Source: Gracilibacillus orientalis (GTDB taxonomy: Bacteria > Bacillota > Bacilli > Bacillales > Amphibacillaceae). From it: a stretch of 64,000 bases of DNA. The notes under the pieces are model-generated. The model was not told where the DNA came from and did no database searches. It saw only the letters and a list, made by a program, of their open reading frames with translations. The position numbers and the translations under genes are program-made. Shown here in pieces: positions 8,590 to 60,844 of this stretch. Location of the stretch: positions 1 through 64,000 of the forward strand of contig NZ_FOTR01000004.1 of assembly GCF_900114645.1 (NCBI RefSeq), in the 5' to 3' direction. The first letter of the stretch is position 1, and every line of letters begins with the position of its first letter.

Positions 8590-8836
8590 GATATGACAAT
8601 CAAAAGCTAGAGAAGGAAAGAGTAGCAGAGAAACAGTAGGAAAGAGAGAGAATTCCCGTGGCTGAAAGAATTCTTGCTATCTGGCTCATGCGAAAGACAT
8701 TCCGGAGGCTTTGTACCGAATAGAGTAGGTATGAACGTATGCAGGCGTTAACTGTTTGAGTGGAAGTAATATTACTTCAACTAGGGTGGCAACACGGGTA
8801 ATCTCTCGTCCCTTTTTTGGGATGGGAGTTTTTTTA
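8590..8836 (+). promoter_or_regulatory. T-box riboswitch of hisS-aspS
   Basis: A tRNA-sensing leader. It has the Stem I segment with CCGTGGCTGAAAGAATTC, the T-box sequence AGGGTGGCAACACGGG at 8783-8798, and a terminator (CTCTCGTCCC/GGGATGGGAG plus T-run, 8803-8836). The 5' half of the terminator can pair alternatively with the T-box. Uncharged tRNA would favour the antiterminator. I could not place the specifier codon with certainty; His (CAT/CAC) or Asp (GAC) is expected. Confidence 0.9.
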
Positions 8837-11900: not shown

Positions 11901-11988
11901 CTGTAATGAAATGATTAAGATATTGTAAAGAAATATCCTTGAATTTCAAAATTCGATATGCTATTATTTATTTAAGATAAAAAATAAA

Positions 11989-12182
11989 AAATCCTGATGT
12001 GTTCGTCAGATTATTGAGTTTTGACCGAACACCAATAACTTCGGGAGCTTGGAGTTCTTATATGGCGTGCATGCCGCTTTACTTATTAGGAATGGCGGAA
12101 GCATGAAGTATAGGACAGGGCACCCACCTGCTAGGAGCGGGATCAAAACTTCATCACGAATGACGGCACGATTGGGATTATT
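11989..12182 (+). ncRNA. ssrS: 6S RNA
   Basis: A non-coding stretch of about 190 bases in the position of bsrA (6S-1 RNA) next to aspS in B. subtilis. The ends pair: AATCCTGATGTG...CGTCA at the 5' side with TGACGGCACGATTGGGATT at the 3' side. A purine-rich apical region and a large internal bubble region (TTTTGACCGAACACC ... GGGATCAAAACT) lie between. 6S RNA mimics an open promoter and sequesters sigma-A RNA polymerase. The call rests on position and closing-stem structure; exact ends are estimated. Confidence 0.85.
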
Positions 12183-22335: not shown

Positions 22336-22383
22336 CCAAAAGTTATCTATAATATGCTAGCGAAGTTAAATAAAACAAATCGA

Positions 22384-22617
22384 AGAAAAATCTGAGTACT
22401 GAATTACCGTTTCCAAGAGAGGAATTTCCGTGGCTGAAAGAAATTCTAAATGCTCTGATTCAGGAAGCTAGTTTGAAGTGCAGCTAATTACTGCCGGGTT
22501 CCATCTCCGTTACAGATGTTAAGGTGACAGTCACTTTGACTGTAATTAGGGTGGTACCGCGGATATAACTCTCGTCCCTGCTGAATCAAGCAGAGATGAG
22601 AGTTTTTTTATTTTTAA
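22384..22617 (+). promoter_or_regulatory. T-box riboswitch of alaS
   Basis: The Stem I element (CCGTGGCTGAAAGAAATTCT), the T-box core AGGGTGGTACCGCGG at 22548-22562 and a strong terminator hairpin (ACTCTCGTCCCTGCT/AGCAGAGATGAGAGT, then TTTTTTT) are all clear. A GCT at 22452-22454, shortly after the Stem I loop, is a plausible alanine specifier codon; that placement is an inference. Confidence 0.93.
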
Positions 22618-57134: not shown

Positions 57135-57986
57135 ATGGAAGACACTGGATTAGTTTTAGAAGGCGGAGGAAGTAGAGGCGTTTATACTGGAGGAGTACTG
57201 CAGTTTTTAATGGAGCAGGAGATTTACATACCTTATGTGATTGGTGTTTCAGCAGGAGCTTGTAATGGCTCATCCTACATTTCTCGTCAAATCGAACGTA
57301 ATAGAACAGTTAATATAGATTATGTCAGCCACCCTGAATATCTTTCATTTCGGAATTGGCTTACCAAGCGAGAATTGTTCGGAATGGATTTTCTGTTTGA
57401 TAGGTTACCAAATGAATTGGTGCCATTTGATTACGAAACGTTTAATGAAGCAACGGAAGAGTTTGTTGTTGGTGTAACAGATTGCAAAACCGGAAACCCA
57501 TTGTTTTATCACAAATCAGATTATGCGAATGATATGCTTACACTGCTTCGTGCATCAAGTTCTCTGCCGATGGTAGCCCCTGTTGTGCAGTATGATAATC
57601 TAGATTTAATGGATGGCGGTATTTCGGCACCGATTCCAATCAAACAATCAATGAAAGATGGTAACAGAAAAAATGTAGTGATCTTAACGAGAAACAGAGG
57701 GTATTATAAAAAACCGCAATCAGTCAATTGGTACATACGAAGAAAGTACCGAGATTATCCAGGCTTACTTCAATCCTTGGAAAAAAGACATATTGAGTAT
57801 AATGAAACAATCAATTATTTGTTTGAAGAAGAGAAAAAAGGAAATGTTTTCATCATTTCCCCGACAGAAAAATTAACTGTCGGGCGAATCGAAAAGAATA
57901 AGAAAAAATTATTGGATTTGTATCAAAAAGGATATGCAGATGTAAAAAAAATTGGAGAAGAATTAAAGGAATTTTTAGCATCCTAA
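57135..57986 (+). CDS. patatin-like phospholipase
   Basis: A 283-residue cytoplasmic lipid acyl hydrolase. Oxyanion motif GGGSRG is at 10-15, nucleophile S39 in GVSAG, and catalytic D160 in MDGG. It resembles YjjU/RssA-type bacterial patatins; lipid substrate unknown. SD AGAGGCG. Monocistronic. Confidence 0.88.
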   Translation: MEDTGLVLEGGGSRGVYTGGVLQFLMEQEIYIPYVIGVSAGACNGSSYISRQIERNRTVNIDYVSHPEYLSFRNWLTKRELFGMDFLFDRLPNELVPFDYETFNEATEEFVVGVTDCKTGNPLFYHKSDYANDMLTLLRASSSLPMVAPVVQYDNLDLMDGGISAPIPIKQSMKDGNRKNVVILTRNRGYYKKPQSVNWYIRRKYRDYPGLLQSLEKRHIEYNETINYLFEEEKKGNVFIISPTEKLTVGRIEKNKKKLLDLYQKGYADVKKIGEELKEFLAS

Positions 57987-58005
57987 TATTTTCCGTTGAT
58001 TAATC

Positions 58006-58034
58006 TTGATTCTTCATTAAAATGTATTTATAAT
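58006..58034 (+). promoter_or_regulatory. sigma-A promoter of the ABC-F leader
   Basis: TTGATT, 17-base spacer, perfect TATAAT; about 400 bases before the ABC-F gene. Confidence 0.65.
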
Positions 58035-58075
58035 AATCACATAATATATTGAACGTTTAGGAGGATTATTAAAAA

Positions 58076-58120
58076 ATGACACATTCAGTGAGACTACGTT
58101 TCCCAGCTTTGAATCAGTAA
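58076..58120 (+). CDS. VmlR-type regulatory leader peptide
   Basis: A 14-codon ORF, MTHSVRLRFPALNQ, preceded by a strong TAGGAGGA SD. Sequence and position closely resemble, from memory, the upstream peptide of B. subtilis vmlR. There, ribosome stalling by lincosamide or streptogramin A lets RNA polymerase pass a terminator. It is the sensor of the attenuator; the peptide has no other known role. Confidence 0.85.
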   Translation: MTHSVRLRFPALNQ

Positions 58121-58130
58121 TTAAATACGG

Positions 58131-58190
58131 TCAAAGACTCTGTTTGTTAACACAGAGGTAATTGGAATTAGTCTGCCCTTTTTTAATAAT
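58131..58190 (+). terminator. first attenuator hairpin region
   Basis: CTCTGT/ACAGAG forms a short stem, AAGAC and GTCT can pair around it, and six T follow at 58179-58184. The stem is weak alone, so alternative pairings with the leader ORF are likely. Confidence 0.5.
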
Positions 58191-58201
58191 CTTCATTTTA
58201 T

Positions 58202-58276
58202 TAGTCAACTATACGTAAATCACTATTATTATGTATAGTTGACTATGATAAAAGGCAGCATGTTCTGCCTTTTTTT
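58202..58276 (+). terminator. second attenuator: 13-bp hairpin plus intrinsic terminator
   Basis: TAGTCAACTATAC (58202-58214) and GTATAGTTGACTA (58233-58245) form a perfect stem. It is followed at once by AAAGGCAG/CTGCCTTT and a T-run (58251-58276), a strong terminator ahead of the ABC-F gene. Confidence 0.85.
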
Positions 58277-58325
58277 GTTTACCAATTTTAAGAGTCTTTT
58301 TAACAACGATGTGGAGGGAAAATCT

Positions 58326-58349
58326 ATGCAATTTTTATTATTCTTTTAA
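58326..58349 (+). CDS. candidate second leader peptide
   Basis: GTGGAGGG is a strong SD placed seven bases before ATG CAA..., encoding only MQFLLFF. Its stop codon overlaps the first base of the next hairpin. The layout is that of an antibiotic-responsive translational attenuator peptide. Coding status is inferred. Confidence 0.5.
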   Translation: MQFLLFF

Positions 58350-58395
58350 TACGAGCTTGATTTATAAGCTCGTATCGATCCTAGCTATCGATACG
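58349..58395 (+). promoter_or_regulatory. two mutually exclusive hairpins before the ABC-F gene
   Basis: Hairpin A is ATACGAGCTT/AAGCTCGTAT (58349-58358 with 58366-58375). Hairpin B is CGTATCGAT/ATCGATACG (58371-58379 with 58387-58395). Both need 58371-58375, so only one can form. A ribosome parked on the short upstream peptide would block A and favour B. Confidence 0.65.
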
Positions 58396-58425
58396 AAATG
58401 AACAATATTTCGGGAGGTAGCAATA

Positions 58426-59880
58426 ATGGAAAAAATATGTTTTGAATTAGAAAATGTTGAACTTACTTTTTTAGATAAGGAAATTTTAAATATTGAACGG
58501 TTAGCTGTACATCAGTTTGATCGGATTGGCATCGTTGGAAAAAACGGAGCGGGTAAAAGCACTTTATTCAAGTTACTCGCTGGTACCATTCAACCGACGC
58601 GAGGAAATATTAAGCGCCACGTTGGTTGTGGCTATTTCAAGCAGACGGAAGCACCACAAGCAATTGAAGTAGATCAAGCTTTAATTGGCAAACTGGCAGT
58701 ACCTAAAGATTCTGACAGTCTAAGTGGCGGGGAGCAAACTAGGCTTAAACTTGCACAATTATTCACGAATTACTTCGAATCATTACTTATTGATGAACCG
58801 ACTACACACTTGGATCAGGATGGTATTTCTTTTTTACTGAATGAATTGCGCTATTATTATGGATCCCTGCTATTAATCAGCCATGACCGGGCTTTACTCG
58901 ATGAACTTGTGACAACAATTTGGGAAGTTATTGATGGCACAGTTCACGTTTATACAGGAAATTACAGCGACTATCTCGAGCAGAAGAAACTGGAACATGA
59001 ACAGCAAAGTCAGGCTTACGAACAATTCGTAAAAGAAAAATGGCGTTTGGAAAAAGCAGCCGAAGAAAAAATGAAAAAGGCTGAAAAAATCGCAAAAAAT
59101 GCGGCTAAGTCAAAAAAGGATTCCAAAGCGAAAGCAAACCGCATGTTTGAGACTAAATCAAAAGCGACAAGTCAAAAAGCAATGCAGCGTGCTGCCAAAA
59201 CAATTGAACACCGAATGGAAAAGTTAACCGAAGTCGAAGAAGTACAAGAAGAAAGACCTATCATATTTCACCAGTCAAAAGCGTTATCTTTGCACAATAA
59301 GTTTCCAATTATGGCAGATAGATTAACCCTTCGTATAGAAGATAACGTGTTATTAGATGAGGTAAGTTTCCAGATGCCACTTGGTAAAAAAATAGCGATA
59401 ACTGGTAAAAATGGCAGTGGAAAAAGTACATTGCTTCACTATGTTGCGAGTTATGGAGATGGTTTAACTATTTCCCCGAAAGCCAGAATAGGCTATTTTC
59501 GTCAAATGAGTTATCAGTTTACTAGTGATGATACGGTACTCCAATTTGTGAAAAATCGCTCACGATACGATGAAGGATTTTTACGTAGTGTTTTACATTC
59601 GATGCAGTTTGTTGGCACAGATATTAAGAAAAGCGTGAAGTCATTAAGTGGCGGAGAAGCGATTCGCCTCCAACTCTGTCAGTTATTCTTAGGAGAATTT
59701 AATATTTTATTATTAGATGAACCAACAAATTTTCTTGATATCTTTGCAATACAGGCATTAGAAAAATTTATAGCAGGTTACGAGGGCACTATCATCATGG
59801 TTTCACATGATAGAAGGTTTATAAACAACCTTGCTGAGCTAAAGTTTCAAATTGTTGATAAAAATTTAGTGGAGATGTAA
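58426..59880 (+). CDS. ABC-F ribosomal-protection ATPase (Vml/Vga-like)
   Basis: A 484-residue twin-ATPase without membrane helices. Walker A1 is GKNGAGKST (about 39-47), signature SLSGGEQTRLKLAQLF, Walker B LLIDEPTTHLD. A long Lys/Ala/Glu-rich interdomain linker lies about 185-285. Walker A2 is GKNGSGKST and signature 2 SLSGGEAIRLQLCQLF. ABC-F proteins of this kind bind the ribosomal E site and dislodge lincosamides, streptogramin A and pleuromutilins; the linker tip sets specificity. It is shorter than VmlR (about 547), lacking a long C-terminal extension. SD GGGAGG. Confidence 0.88.
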   Translation: MEKICFELENVELTFLDKEILNIERLAVHQFDRIGIVGKNGAGKSTLFKLLAGTIQPTRGNIKRHVGCGYFKQTEAPQAIEVDQALIGKLAVPKDSDSLSGGEQTRLKLAQLFTNYFESLLIDEPTTHLDQDGISFLLNELRYYYGSLLLISHDRALLDELVTTIWEVIDGTVHVYTGNYSDYLEQKKLEHEQQSQAYEQFVKEKWRLEKAAEEKMKKAEKIAKNAAKSKKDSKAKANRMFETKSKATSQKAMQRAAKTIEHRMEKLTEVEEVQEERPIIFHQSKALSLHNKFPIMADRLTLRIEDNVLLDEVSFQMPLGKKIAITGKNGSGKSTLLHYVASYGDGLTISPKARIGYFRQMSYQFTSDDTVLQFVKNRSRYDEGFLRSVLHSMQFVGTDIKKSVKSLSGGEAIRLQLCQLFLGEFNILLLDEPTNFLDIFAIQALEKFIAGYEGTIIMVSHDRRFINNLAELKFQIVDKNLVEM

Positions 59881-60551: not shown

Positions 60552-60607
60552 GGCATCGGATAAAGTTCTTTTAGGGAAGGTCGGCTAATCTCCGGTGAAA
60601 GGGGGTG

Positions 60608-60709
60608 ATGCCTCTGGGGATGTACGAAAGTTTTATGGTATTGTTTAGTTTTGGAACTTTCTTGATTGCATTACTCGCCTTGATTGTATCAATAATCAAT
60701 CGAAAATAG
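60608..60709 (+). CDS. putative holin-like type I toxin
   Basis: A 33-residue peptide: a short polar start, MYESFMVLFSFGTF and one long hydrophobic helix, ending in a basic INRK. This is the pattern of the Hol_Tox (PF16935) peptides, cousins of the TxpA/BsrG membrane toxins. The AAAGGGGGTG SD nearly touches ATG 60608. CTG 60614 (the usual family start position) or ATG 60620 may be the real start. An antisense promoter faces its 3' end. Confidence 0.78.
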   Translation: MPLGMYESFMVLFSFGTFLIALLALIVSIINRK

Positions 60710-60844
60710 ACCTCCCTAATTTACCCTGACAAAGTGACTAGGTGAGGTCTATCTCTTAGATGGCCGAACCCTTTCTGGGGGAACCGCTTATCCAAAACCC
60801 ACAGTTACGACTGTGGGTTTTTAATATTAGTATATGAATTACCT
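60701..60844 (-). ncRNA. predicted antisense antitoxin RNA
   Basis: A minus-strand promoter drives RNA toward and across the toxin stop codon: GTGACA at 60874-60879, a 17-base spacer, and TATAAT at 60851-60856 with a TGC extension. The RNA would start near 60844. It could end at the hairpin ATAGACCTC/GAGGTCTAT (60706-60714 with 60744-60752) followed by TTTTC. Convergent 3'-overlapping antisense RNA is the rule in Bacillus type I systems. Both ends are predictions. Confidence 0.55.
60794..60822 (+). terminator. terminator of the toxin mRNA
   Basis: AAAACCCACAG/CTGTGGGTTTT with a 6-base loop and T-run. The overlap with the antisense RNA start region gives about 140 bases of complementarity. 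Confidence 0.85.

Follow-up and report, generated by a model that had tools for sequence, protein, structure and literature searches.

The msr locus

The window, a stretch of 64,000 nucleotides at the start of contig NZ_FOTR01000004.1 of Gracilibacillus orientalis, carries a resistance gene preceded by two short upstream open reading frames. Gracilibacillus is a salt-loving relative of Bacillus. The 484-residue product matches the NCBIfam model of Msr-type ABC-F proteins (NF000168, Msr_all) with 754.7 bits against a cut-off of 680, and scores below the cut-off of the NCBIfam Vga model (443.2 bits, cut-off 725). Its nearest labelled plasmid relatives are msr(G), with 68.5-77% identity. Judged by sequence, the gene product is a macrolide-protection protein of Msr type and not vmlR. 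The leader has no Rfam match at gathering score. Promoter-like sites in the region number 8 compared with 3.3 (sd 2.0) in shuffles, which taken alone is weak evidence; the best of them is listed here with the gene.

58006-58034, + strand: likely sigma-A promoter TTGATT-17-TATAAT (top consensus match in the region, 10/12)
58426-59880, + strand: msr-type ABC-F ribosomal protection gene (NCBIfam NF000168; msr(G) identity)

Comparative set

Searching GTDB genomes with the window protein yielded 134 relatives; the 80 best were retained, so that the set is selected for closeness to the window Msr. Adding the window (L001) and G. timonensis (L003) brings the total to 82 rows; as L003 and L093 are one and the same place, there are 81 distinct loci. 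Both leader peptides are present in 53 of the 82 rows, the first lying within 700 bases of msr in 36 and farther away in 17. Of the 73 loci with a second peptide, 59 are in alignment A1, from which 14 close copies were omitted by eye; alignment A2 holds 59 of the 61 loci with a uORF1-type peptide, with L093 and L098 omitted as identical to others there. For terminator typing the 61 rows fall to 57 through the loss of L071 (no R3 match) and of L068, L080 and L108 (no terminator found), and these 57 still include the duplicates L003/L093 and L097/L098. Genes like msr(G) also occur in records under the names Arthrobacter and Stenotrophomonas (L035; plasmid H7, H8), through either contamination or transfer.

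The first leader

The upstream half of the leader comprises a peptide of the ErmDL/ErmK type, a long-range fold and an intrinsic terminator.

58059-58064, + strand: SD of the first leader peptide, AGGAGG (sequence; conserved in alignment A2)
58076-58120, + strand: uORF1 MTHSVRLRFPALNQ, ErmDL/ErmK-type +x+ (RLR) leader peptide of 14 codons (relatives; ErmDL comparison)
58061-58076:58179-58194, + strand: helix P1 (pair counts, 59 loci)
58091-58096:58169-58174, + strand: helix P2, its 5' strand being the RLR codons (pair counts, 59 loci)
58107-58112:58131-58136, + strand: helix P3 (pair counts, 59 loci)
58138-58143:58152-58157, + strand: helix P4 (pair counts, 59 loci)
58169-58194, + strand: R3, the 3' strand of P1/P2 and proposed antiterminator strand (58173-58177 pairs with 58254-58258 in the masked fold)
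58202-58245, + strand: perfect 13-bp inverted repeat, 58202-58214/58233-58245 (16-17 bp if extended), apical hairpin of the proposed antiterminator
58250-58277 (58250-58273 in the scan), + strand: Ta-type intrinsic terminator AAAAGGCAGCATGTTCTGCCTTTTTTT (terminator scan)

MTHSVRLRFPALNQ differs at two residues from ErmDL, MTHSMRLRFPTLNQ as quoted in PMC10314930 and given for ErmK in the available part of PMC4335068, and retains the RLR motif. A uORF1-like peptide was found by pattern search in 61 of the 82 msr rows; its +x+ motif opens with R or K in all 61 and closes with R in 58, these residues being encoded by several codons. The pattern is strict, and like peptides are also present in L065, L096 and L106. 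Among the 20 loci that have a second peptide and no +x+ motif by this pattern, 8 carry MAFLQLY or MGFVQLY upstream, and 16 have a terminator-like hairpin (counted without a control; L065 and L096, both among the 20, do carry +x+). As a side observation, MAFLQLY or MGFVQLY stands with a terminator-like hairpin at the ErmDL-type place in L035, L043, L050, L053, L054, L058, L063 and L070. The variety of first peptides set against the constancy of the second suggests that the first lock is exchangeable and the second constant.

The first leader folds over a long range (58061-58194, + strand) into four helices, P1 to P4, that are kept across the 59 loci of A2. P1 pairs the SD and start region with a U-rich strand; 94.6% of its cells are paired compared with 45-66% after sliding, and 8 of its 16 pairs show two-sided changes, a count that none of 500 shuffles reached. 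In P2, 92.9% of cells are paired and 20 are two-sided (0/500 shuffles), all within one pair, so that its count of two-sided pairs is no better than in shuffles (500/500). P3 and P4 together have 5 pairs with two-sided changes (0/500 shuffles). The segment 58060-58198 is also unusually stable for its composition (z -4.55; none of 200 shuffles equally stable).

Downstream of this fold, a terminator scan of 57950-58450, restricted to loops of 3-8, gives one match compared with 0.2 (sd 0.4) in shuffles. The first-pass annotation had correctly identified the SD and the peptide MTHSVRLRFPALNQ at 58076-58120, and the perfect 13-bp hairpin followed by a strong terminator at 58250-58273 is likewise borne out (58198-58280, z -7.39; 0/200 shuffles equally stable). 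Its VmlR-type label for the peptide, with vmlR as the reference, has to be given up: the gene is of Msr type at 754.7 bits, the peptide is of ErmDL/ErmK type and the VmlR uORF is MIN. The terminator it placed directly after the first peptide corresponds instead to the 3' strand of the covarying P1/P2, with the U-run 58179-58184 lying inside P1 opposite the SD region 58061-58076. Tandem terminators in the window are thus not supported by the scan within its loop range. The 13-bp hairpin was also considered as a conserved element and rejected, as relatives viewed by eye show no hairpin or an unrelated one at that place.

In relatives, two kinds of terminator follow P1-P4, Ta (AGAAAGGCGG..CTGCCTTTCT) and Tb (AATCACAGGCAGA..TCTGTGATT). 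In the scan, 23 of the 57 typed rows have Ta together with Tb, 30 have only Tb and 4, including the window, have only Ta; it misses some hairpins visible by eye, such as Tb in L039 and L040. The near relative L002, of the same genus, has by eye both peptides, Ta and Tb, and the second element, with the peptide MMMLWFY.

Folding predictions show how the fold and the terminator might be linked. If a stalled ribosome covers the RLR codons and the RNA from 58110 to 58262 is left to fold, 58173-58177 is predicted to pair with the terminator's 5' arm (58254-58258), the 13-bp hairpin lying between the two. The start of the folded RNA at 58110 follows the general size of a ribosome footprint. In unmasked RNA up to 58262, the strand 58169-58194 stays in P1/P2 and the antiterminator is absent. 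Once the terminator is complete the two states in the window are nearly equal, at -41.0 kcal/mol with the antiterminator forced and -42.3 kcal/mol with the terminator, and the equilibrium probability of the terminator falls from 0.90 unmasked to 0.74 masked. Across the set, masking lowers terminator probability by more than 0.3 in 28 of 53 Tb and 4 of 27 Ta terminators. On these predictions a switch at the first lock is plausible and would be kinetic.

The second leader

Between the terminator and msr lie a second SD, a seven-residue peptide and a four-segment element, whose segments are numbered 1 to 4.

58313-58318, + strand: SD of the second leader peptide, GGAGGG (sequence; like sequences in relatives)
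58326-58349, + strand: uORF2 MQFLLFF, MsrDL-like leader peptide (73/82 msr locus rows)
58349-58375, + strand: helix 1:2, 58349-58358:58366-58375 (covariation, 59 loci)
58370-58396, + strand: helix 2:3, 58370-58379:58387-58396, the proposed induced-state helix (pair counts, 59 loci)
58384-58421, + strand: helix 3:4, 58384-58389:58416-58421 and 58394-58399:58407-58412 (anchor counts, 73 loci)

MQFLLFF is short and hydrophobic and ends 76 nt before the msr start; its relatives include MYMLLFF and MYLPLFF. A peptide of the M..LLF[F/Y/H] type together with the same four-segment element is present in 73 of the 82 rows. In 71 of the 73 peptides the last four residues are L-L-F-[F/Y/H]; position by position, L is found in 72, L in 72, F in 73, and then F in 41, Y in 30 and H in 2. 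All six Leu codons occur across the two Leu positions, and both Phe codons at the conserved Phe; this synonymous variety argues that the peptide is kept and not the RNA alone. The stop codon is TGA in 52 and TAA in 21. By pattern search the second peptide is absent from 9 of the 82 rows (L003, L093, L101, L104 and L106-L110), which include G. timonensis (L003) of the window's own genus; apart from L003 and L093 these rows, seven in number, group together on the quick tree in a single starred branch (98).

The 5' arm of helix 1:2 begins in the window at the last base of the uORF2 stop. Across the 59 loci of A1, 97.8% of its cells are paired compared with 22-47% when slid, with 4 two-sided pairs (3/500 shuffles as high) and 13 two-sided cells (0/500). 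Helix 2:3 is mutually exclusive with it, 58370-58375 being common to both, and has 99.5% of cells paired compared with 13-41% when slid. Two-sided change in 2:3 is limited to 1 pair (120/500 shuffles as high) and 2 loci (14/500), a weak covariation that reflects its near-invariant sequence. Helix 3:4 encloses the msr SD (58412-58417). Its outer six pairs are standard in 73 of 73 loci and its inner six in 72, 73, 73, 73, 72 and 63 of 73, as counted by anchors without a shuffle control, since many rows of A1 have the arms one base out of register. The terminator scan (loops 3-8) finds nothing between 58350 and 58425, and in the window no U-run follows 1:2 or 3:4; as 3:4 also encloses the msr SD, the element is read as a translational lock. 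The first-pass annotation had correctly noted the second SD at 58313-58318 and MQFLLFF at 58326-58349, a peptide type now seen in 73 of 82 rows. It had also proposed two mutually exclusive hairpins just before the gene, which holds for 1:2 and 2:3, of which 1:2 covaries, while overlooking the third helix, 3:4, over the msr SD.

The region 58345-58425 is more stable than any of 200 shuffles (z -4.62). With segment 1 masked, the remaining 58361-58425 has an ordinary fold (z -1.38; 18/200 shuffles equally stable), in which 3:4 in the window is slightly better than 2:3 (-13.3 and -12.2 kcal/mol); in 44 of 73 loci, not including the window, 2:3 is at least as good as 3:4. Mean predicted accessibility of the SD rises on masking from 0.48 to 0.55 over the 73 loci, by more than 0.2 in 11 of them, and in the window it drops from 0.58 to 0.30. 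When the RNA is cut before segment 4, 2:3 forms in all five loci shown, the window included, and a helix 2:3 formed early could be trapped. As the computed energies of the induced and repressed states differ little, both switches would need kinetic, co-transcriptional folding.

Distribution of the second element

Conservation of the second element extends to dozens of Bacillus-like genomes, and no Rfam family matches it at gathering score. The covariance model R1, built from the element, matches at 21 places in 19 of 397 genomes of the order and in 4 of 398 genomes of a phylum sample, in searches run under Infernal's stricter filters and with the window's genome in both samples. At least 12 of the 19 genomes overlap loci of the comparative set, so that the count is partly a recount and not independent. 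In all 19 an msr-like sequence immediately follows a copy of the element (two pieces per locus viewed). The match to msr is fragmented in L122, L125 and L135, where the gene is possibly broken. Of the two remaining places, one lies directly before mef in Priestia abyssalis (G397, L034) and the other, in G373, is a second copy just upstream of the first. Three of the phylum-sample matches precede msr (the window, L136 and L137). The fourth, L138 (E 9.9e-4), lies outside this group and was rejected as a chance match because the element itself is absent; the gene behind it, going by its translation, is presumably purE. Among the R1 matches in the order and phylum samples, no gene kind other than msr and mef was seen behind the element. 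On both mef(F)-msr(G) plasmids examined (L111, L112) the element stands before msr(G), behind mef(F). Nothing like it was seen in the 130 bases viewed on an Enterococcus plasmid with a 44% identical ABC-F protein (L114).

Genes between the two leaders

The 17 both-leader loci with a distant first peptide carry between the two leaders mef (8), mph (4), an rlmA(II)-like gene (3), erm (1) or, in L037, no recognised gene. In the other 16 loci the intervening genes belong to macrolide-resistance families. One mef, one mph, one erm and two rlmA(II) genes were scored with NCBIfam, the Mef, RlmA and Mph examples falling below the curated cut-offs and the Erm example above, and the others were labelled by sequence motif. 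Ten loci have mef; of the nine inspected, six (L033, L034, L057, L086, L092 and L100) have an LLFY-type peptide with its own hairpins before mef. In these six the mef SD, GGAGGTATCGAT (GGGGGTATCGAT in L086), lies inside a ATCGATAC:GTATCGAT pairing, in which it is paired to ATCGATAC. The two mef(F) plasmids (L111, L112) have no LLFY-type attenuator of their own before mef.

Two leaders in tandem with no recognised gene between them, as in the window, occur in 38 of 83 rows. On the quick tree this form needs a minimum of 14 changes, of which starred branches force 7; as the shuffled mean is 27.1 changes, it is also clustered. Upstream of msr, L064 has a broken mef start and L095 a mef-attenuator-like stretch without mef, suggesting that mef was lost from between two locks in these loci. 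The window, in which no remnant of an intervening gene was found, may owe its arrangement to such a loss of an intervening gene, by which it arose or was re-formed.

Comparison with known leaders

The likenesses and differences below refer to the available parts of the cited papers. The closest published arrangement is that of streptococcal mefA/msrD, in which MefAL (MTASMRLR) and MsrDL (MYLIFM) each release a terminator, described by its authors as a double lock (PMC10314930). As in the window, a +x+ leader comes first and a short hydrophobic leader second, directly before msr, and the relatives' second peptides MYMLLFF and MYLPLFF resemble MYLIFM in sequence. The mefA/msrD system differs in that both locks are transcriptional, with mefA between them, whereas in the window the two locks have no gene between them and the second covers an SD. 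At the place of the window's hairpins, phi1207.3 (L113) has a CCTGC/GCAGG hairpin and a U-run after MYLIFM. Of the MsrDL-type features, the window has the short hydrophobic peptide directly before msr, with no terminator found after it in the scan.

The first leader resembles the erm(D)/erm(K) attenuator (PMC4335068), with a nearly identical leader peptide including RLR and a terminator between peptide and gene. Two adjacent terminators are reported for erm(K) in that paper, similar to Ta and Tb in many relatives; the window differs in having one found terminator and msr as its gene. The second leader resembles the ermC attenuator (PMC10219788), where a leader peptide precedes alternative hairpins of which the last hides the SD of the resistance gene. 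The window has this layout, with 1:2, 2:3 and 3:4 possible and the SD in 3:4, but its peptide, sequence and target gene are different and the element sits behind a transcription attenuator.

Other leaders share single traits with the window. B. subtilis VmlR has the tripeptide MIN as its uORF and confers resistance to lincosamides, pleuromutilins and streptogramin A (PMC9226507); its leader likewise serves an ABC-F gene by transcription attenuation and has an SD-sequestering hairpin, but the single uORF serves both levels and responds to other drugs, compared with peptides of 14 and 7 codons in the window. C. difficile cplR (PMC10201436) is also an ABC-F gene with a uORF, and its terminator stem also hides the SD; there one three-codon uORF (MRI) and a single structure do both jobs, compared with two peptides and two devices in the window. 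Two leader peptides before one resistance gene are reported for ermB (PMC8274638), although that paper is titled for translational attenuation and the opening of its abstract mentions no transcription lock. A second peptide with its own switch, which the first-pass annotation took to be undescribed for vmlR, is already known for the homologue msrD, where MsrDL acts on transcription (PMC10314930). MQFLLFF was not found in the literature searched, a scope outside which most subscription journals lie. Within the same scope, the matches listed from the resistance-leader and attenuation literature included no ABC-F gene preceded by such a mixed pair, a transcription lock and then a translation lock, each having a peptide to itself.

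A model for two-step control of msr

We consider it probable that the leader is a macrolide-inducible regulator of msr with two locks in series, a transcription lock in the style of ermD/K followed by a translation lock in the style of ermC. The two-leader arrangement is real and conserved, and it is very probably a working regulator. Its peptides, terminator, helices and conservation are supported in the sequence, with covariation in P1-P4 and 1:2 and slightly in 2:3. Drug-dependent stalling, the position of the stall, the macrolide inducers and the direction of both switches are what we infer from these features. Macrolides are the expected inducers given an Msr-type gene and a first peptide of the ErmDL/ErmK type. 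Weighing against the model are the small equilibrium effects of masking on terminator probability and SD accessibility, the slight covariation of 2:3 and the absence of a second peptide from G. timonensis. The first-pass annotation had suggested transcription attenuation by one drug-stalled ribosome combined with a separate second switch; this outline fits the conservation and covariation, although its labels were wrong and one terminator is found rather than two.

Without drug, the ErmDL-type peptide would be translated through, the RNA would fold into P1-P4 and the terminator at 58250-58273 would form. With drug, a ribosome stalling on the RLR codons, which make up the 5' strand of P2, would free 58169-58194 to pair with the emerging 5' arm of the terminator, and RNA polymerase would read on. 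In the read-through mRNA, hairpins 1:2 and 3:4 would form and 3:4 would cover the msr ribosome-binding site. On MQFLLFF, drug would halt the ribosome where the peptide ends (its A site probably holding the stop codon, like that of the MsrDL ribosome), and the halted ribosome should cover segment 1; segment 2 would then pair with 3, segment 4 would be freed and Msr would be made. The LLF[F/Y/H]-stop sequence is thus a candidate arrest peptide to compare with MsrDL.

The second step could be read in other ways. The two-leader form may be the relic of an operon that has lost the gene between its locks, with a single lock working in this species. The intervening genes of 16 both-leader loci, the broken mef start of L064, the mef-attenuator-like stretch of L095 and the absence of Tb from the window are all consistent with this. 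Yet SD, peptide and helices are intact in both elements of the window, and leaders in tandem with no recognised gene between them are common, requiring at least 14 changes (7 forced), even if clustered relative to the shuffled mean. We regard a relic as unlikely, while the least unlikely of the alternatives. Slightly less probable is a passive second element, in which 3:4 merely lowers msr translation or uORF2 serves re-initiation or coupling, and the peptide is no drug sensor. The small exposure of the SD on masking in silico and the slight covariation of 2:3 would fit such an element. It does not explain why the LLF[F/Y/H] end is kept through synonymous codon changes, nor why 58376-58379, outside 1:2, have stayed able to pair with segment 3 (2 loci show two-sided change), which a passive hairpin would not require.

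It is more improbable still that the second peptide acts on transcription as MsrDL does (PMC10314930), with 1:2 or 3:4 pausing or terminating RNA polymerase and a stalled ribosome releasing it. A TTNTTT motif in or adjoining uORF2 in 55 of 73 loci speaks for such a role, since TTNTTT is the NusG pause consensus reported for vmlR and msrDL in the available part of the same paper. The window, with no U-run after 1:2 or 3:4 and no terminator in the scan, speaks against it, as does the inclusion of the SD region in 3:4 in 73 of 73 loci.

If the proposed series of a transcription lock and a translation lock holds, the leader would be a natural gate with two steps, at which different arrest peptides, one for transcription and the other for translation, guard a single resistance gene. 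This would allow the question to be asked whether double locks sense different drugs or only cut leakage of a costly protein. It is possible, though we think it on balance doubtful, that such leaders form a mixed AND gate across Bacillales, in which a shared +x+ transcription lock and a private LLFF-stop translation lock answer to different drug sets and Msr is made only when both report. Many mef operons would on this proposal have a third lock of LLFY type for mef, and mef, rlmA(II)-like, mph and erm genes would be swapped while the locks stay.

Other RNA elements in the window

Just downstream of msr and one divergent gene lies a BsrG-like type I toxin-antitoxin RNA (60559-60818, + strand; RF01412, 61.7 bits, gathering score 55), whose locus contains a small membrane-type ORF, MYESFMVLFSFGTFLIALLALIVSIINRK. 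Elsewhere on the + strand of the window there are two T-box leaders and one 6S RNA, at 8601-8816, 22374-22582 and 11988-12182.
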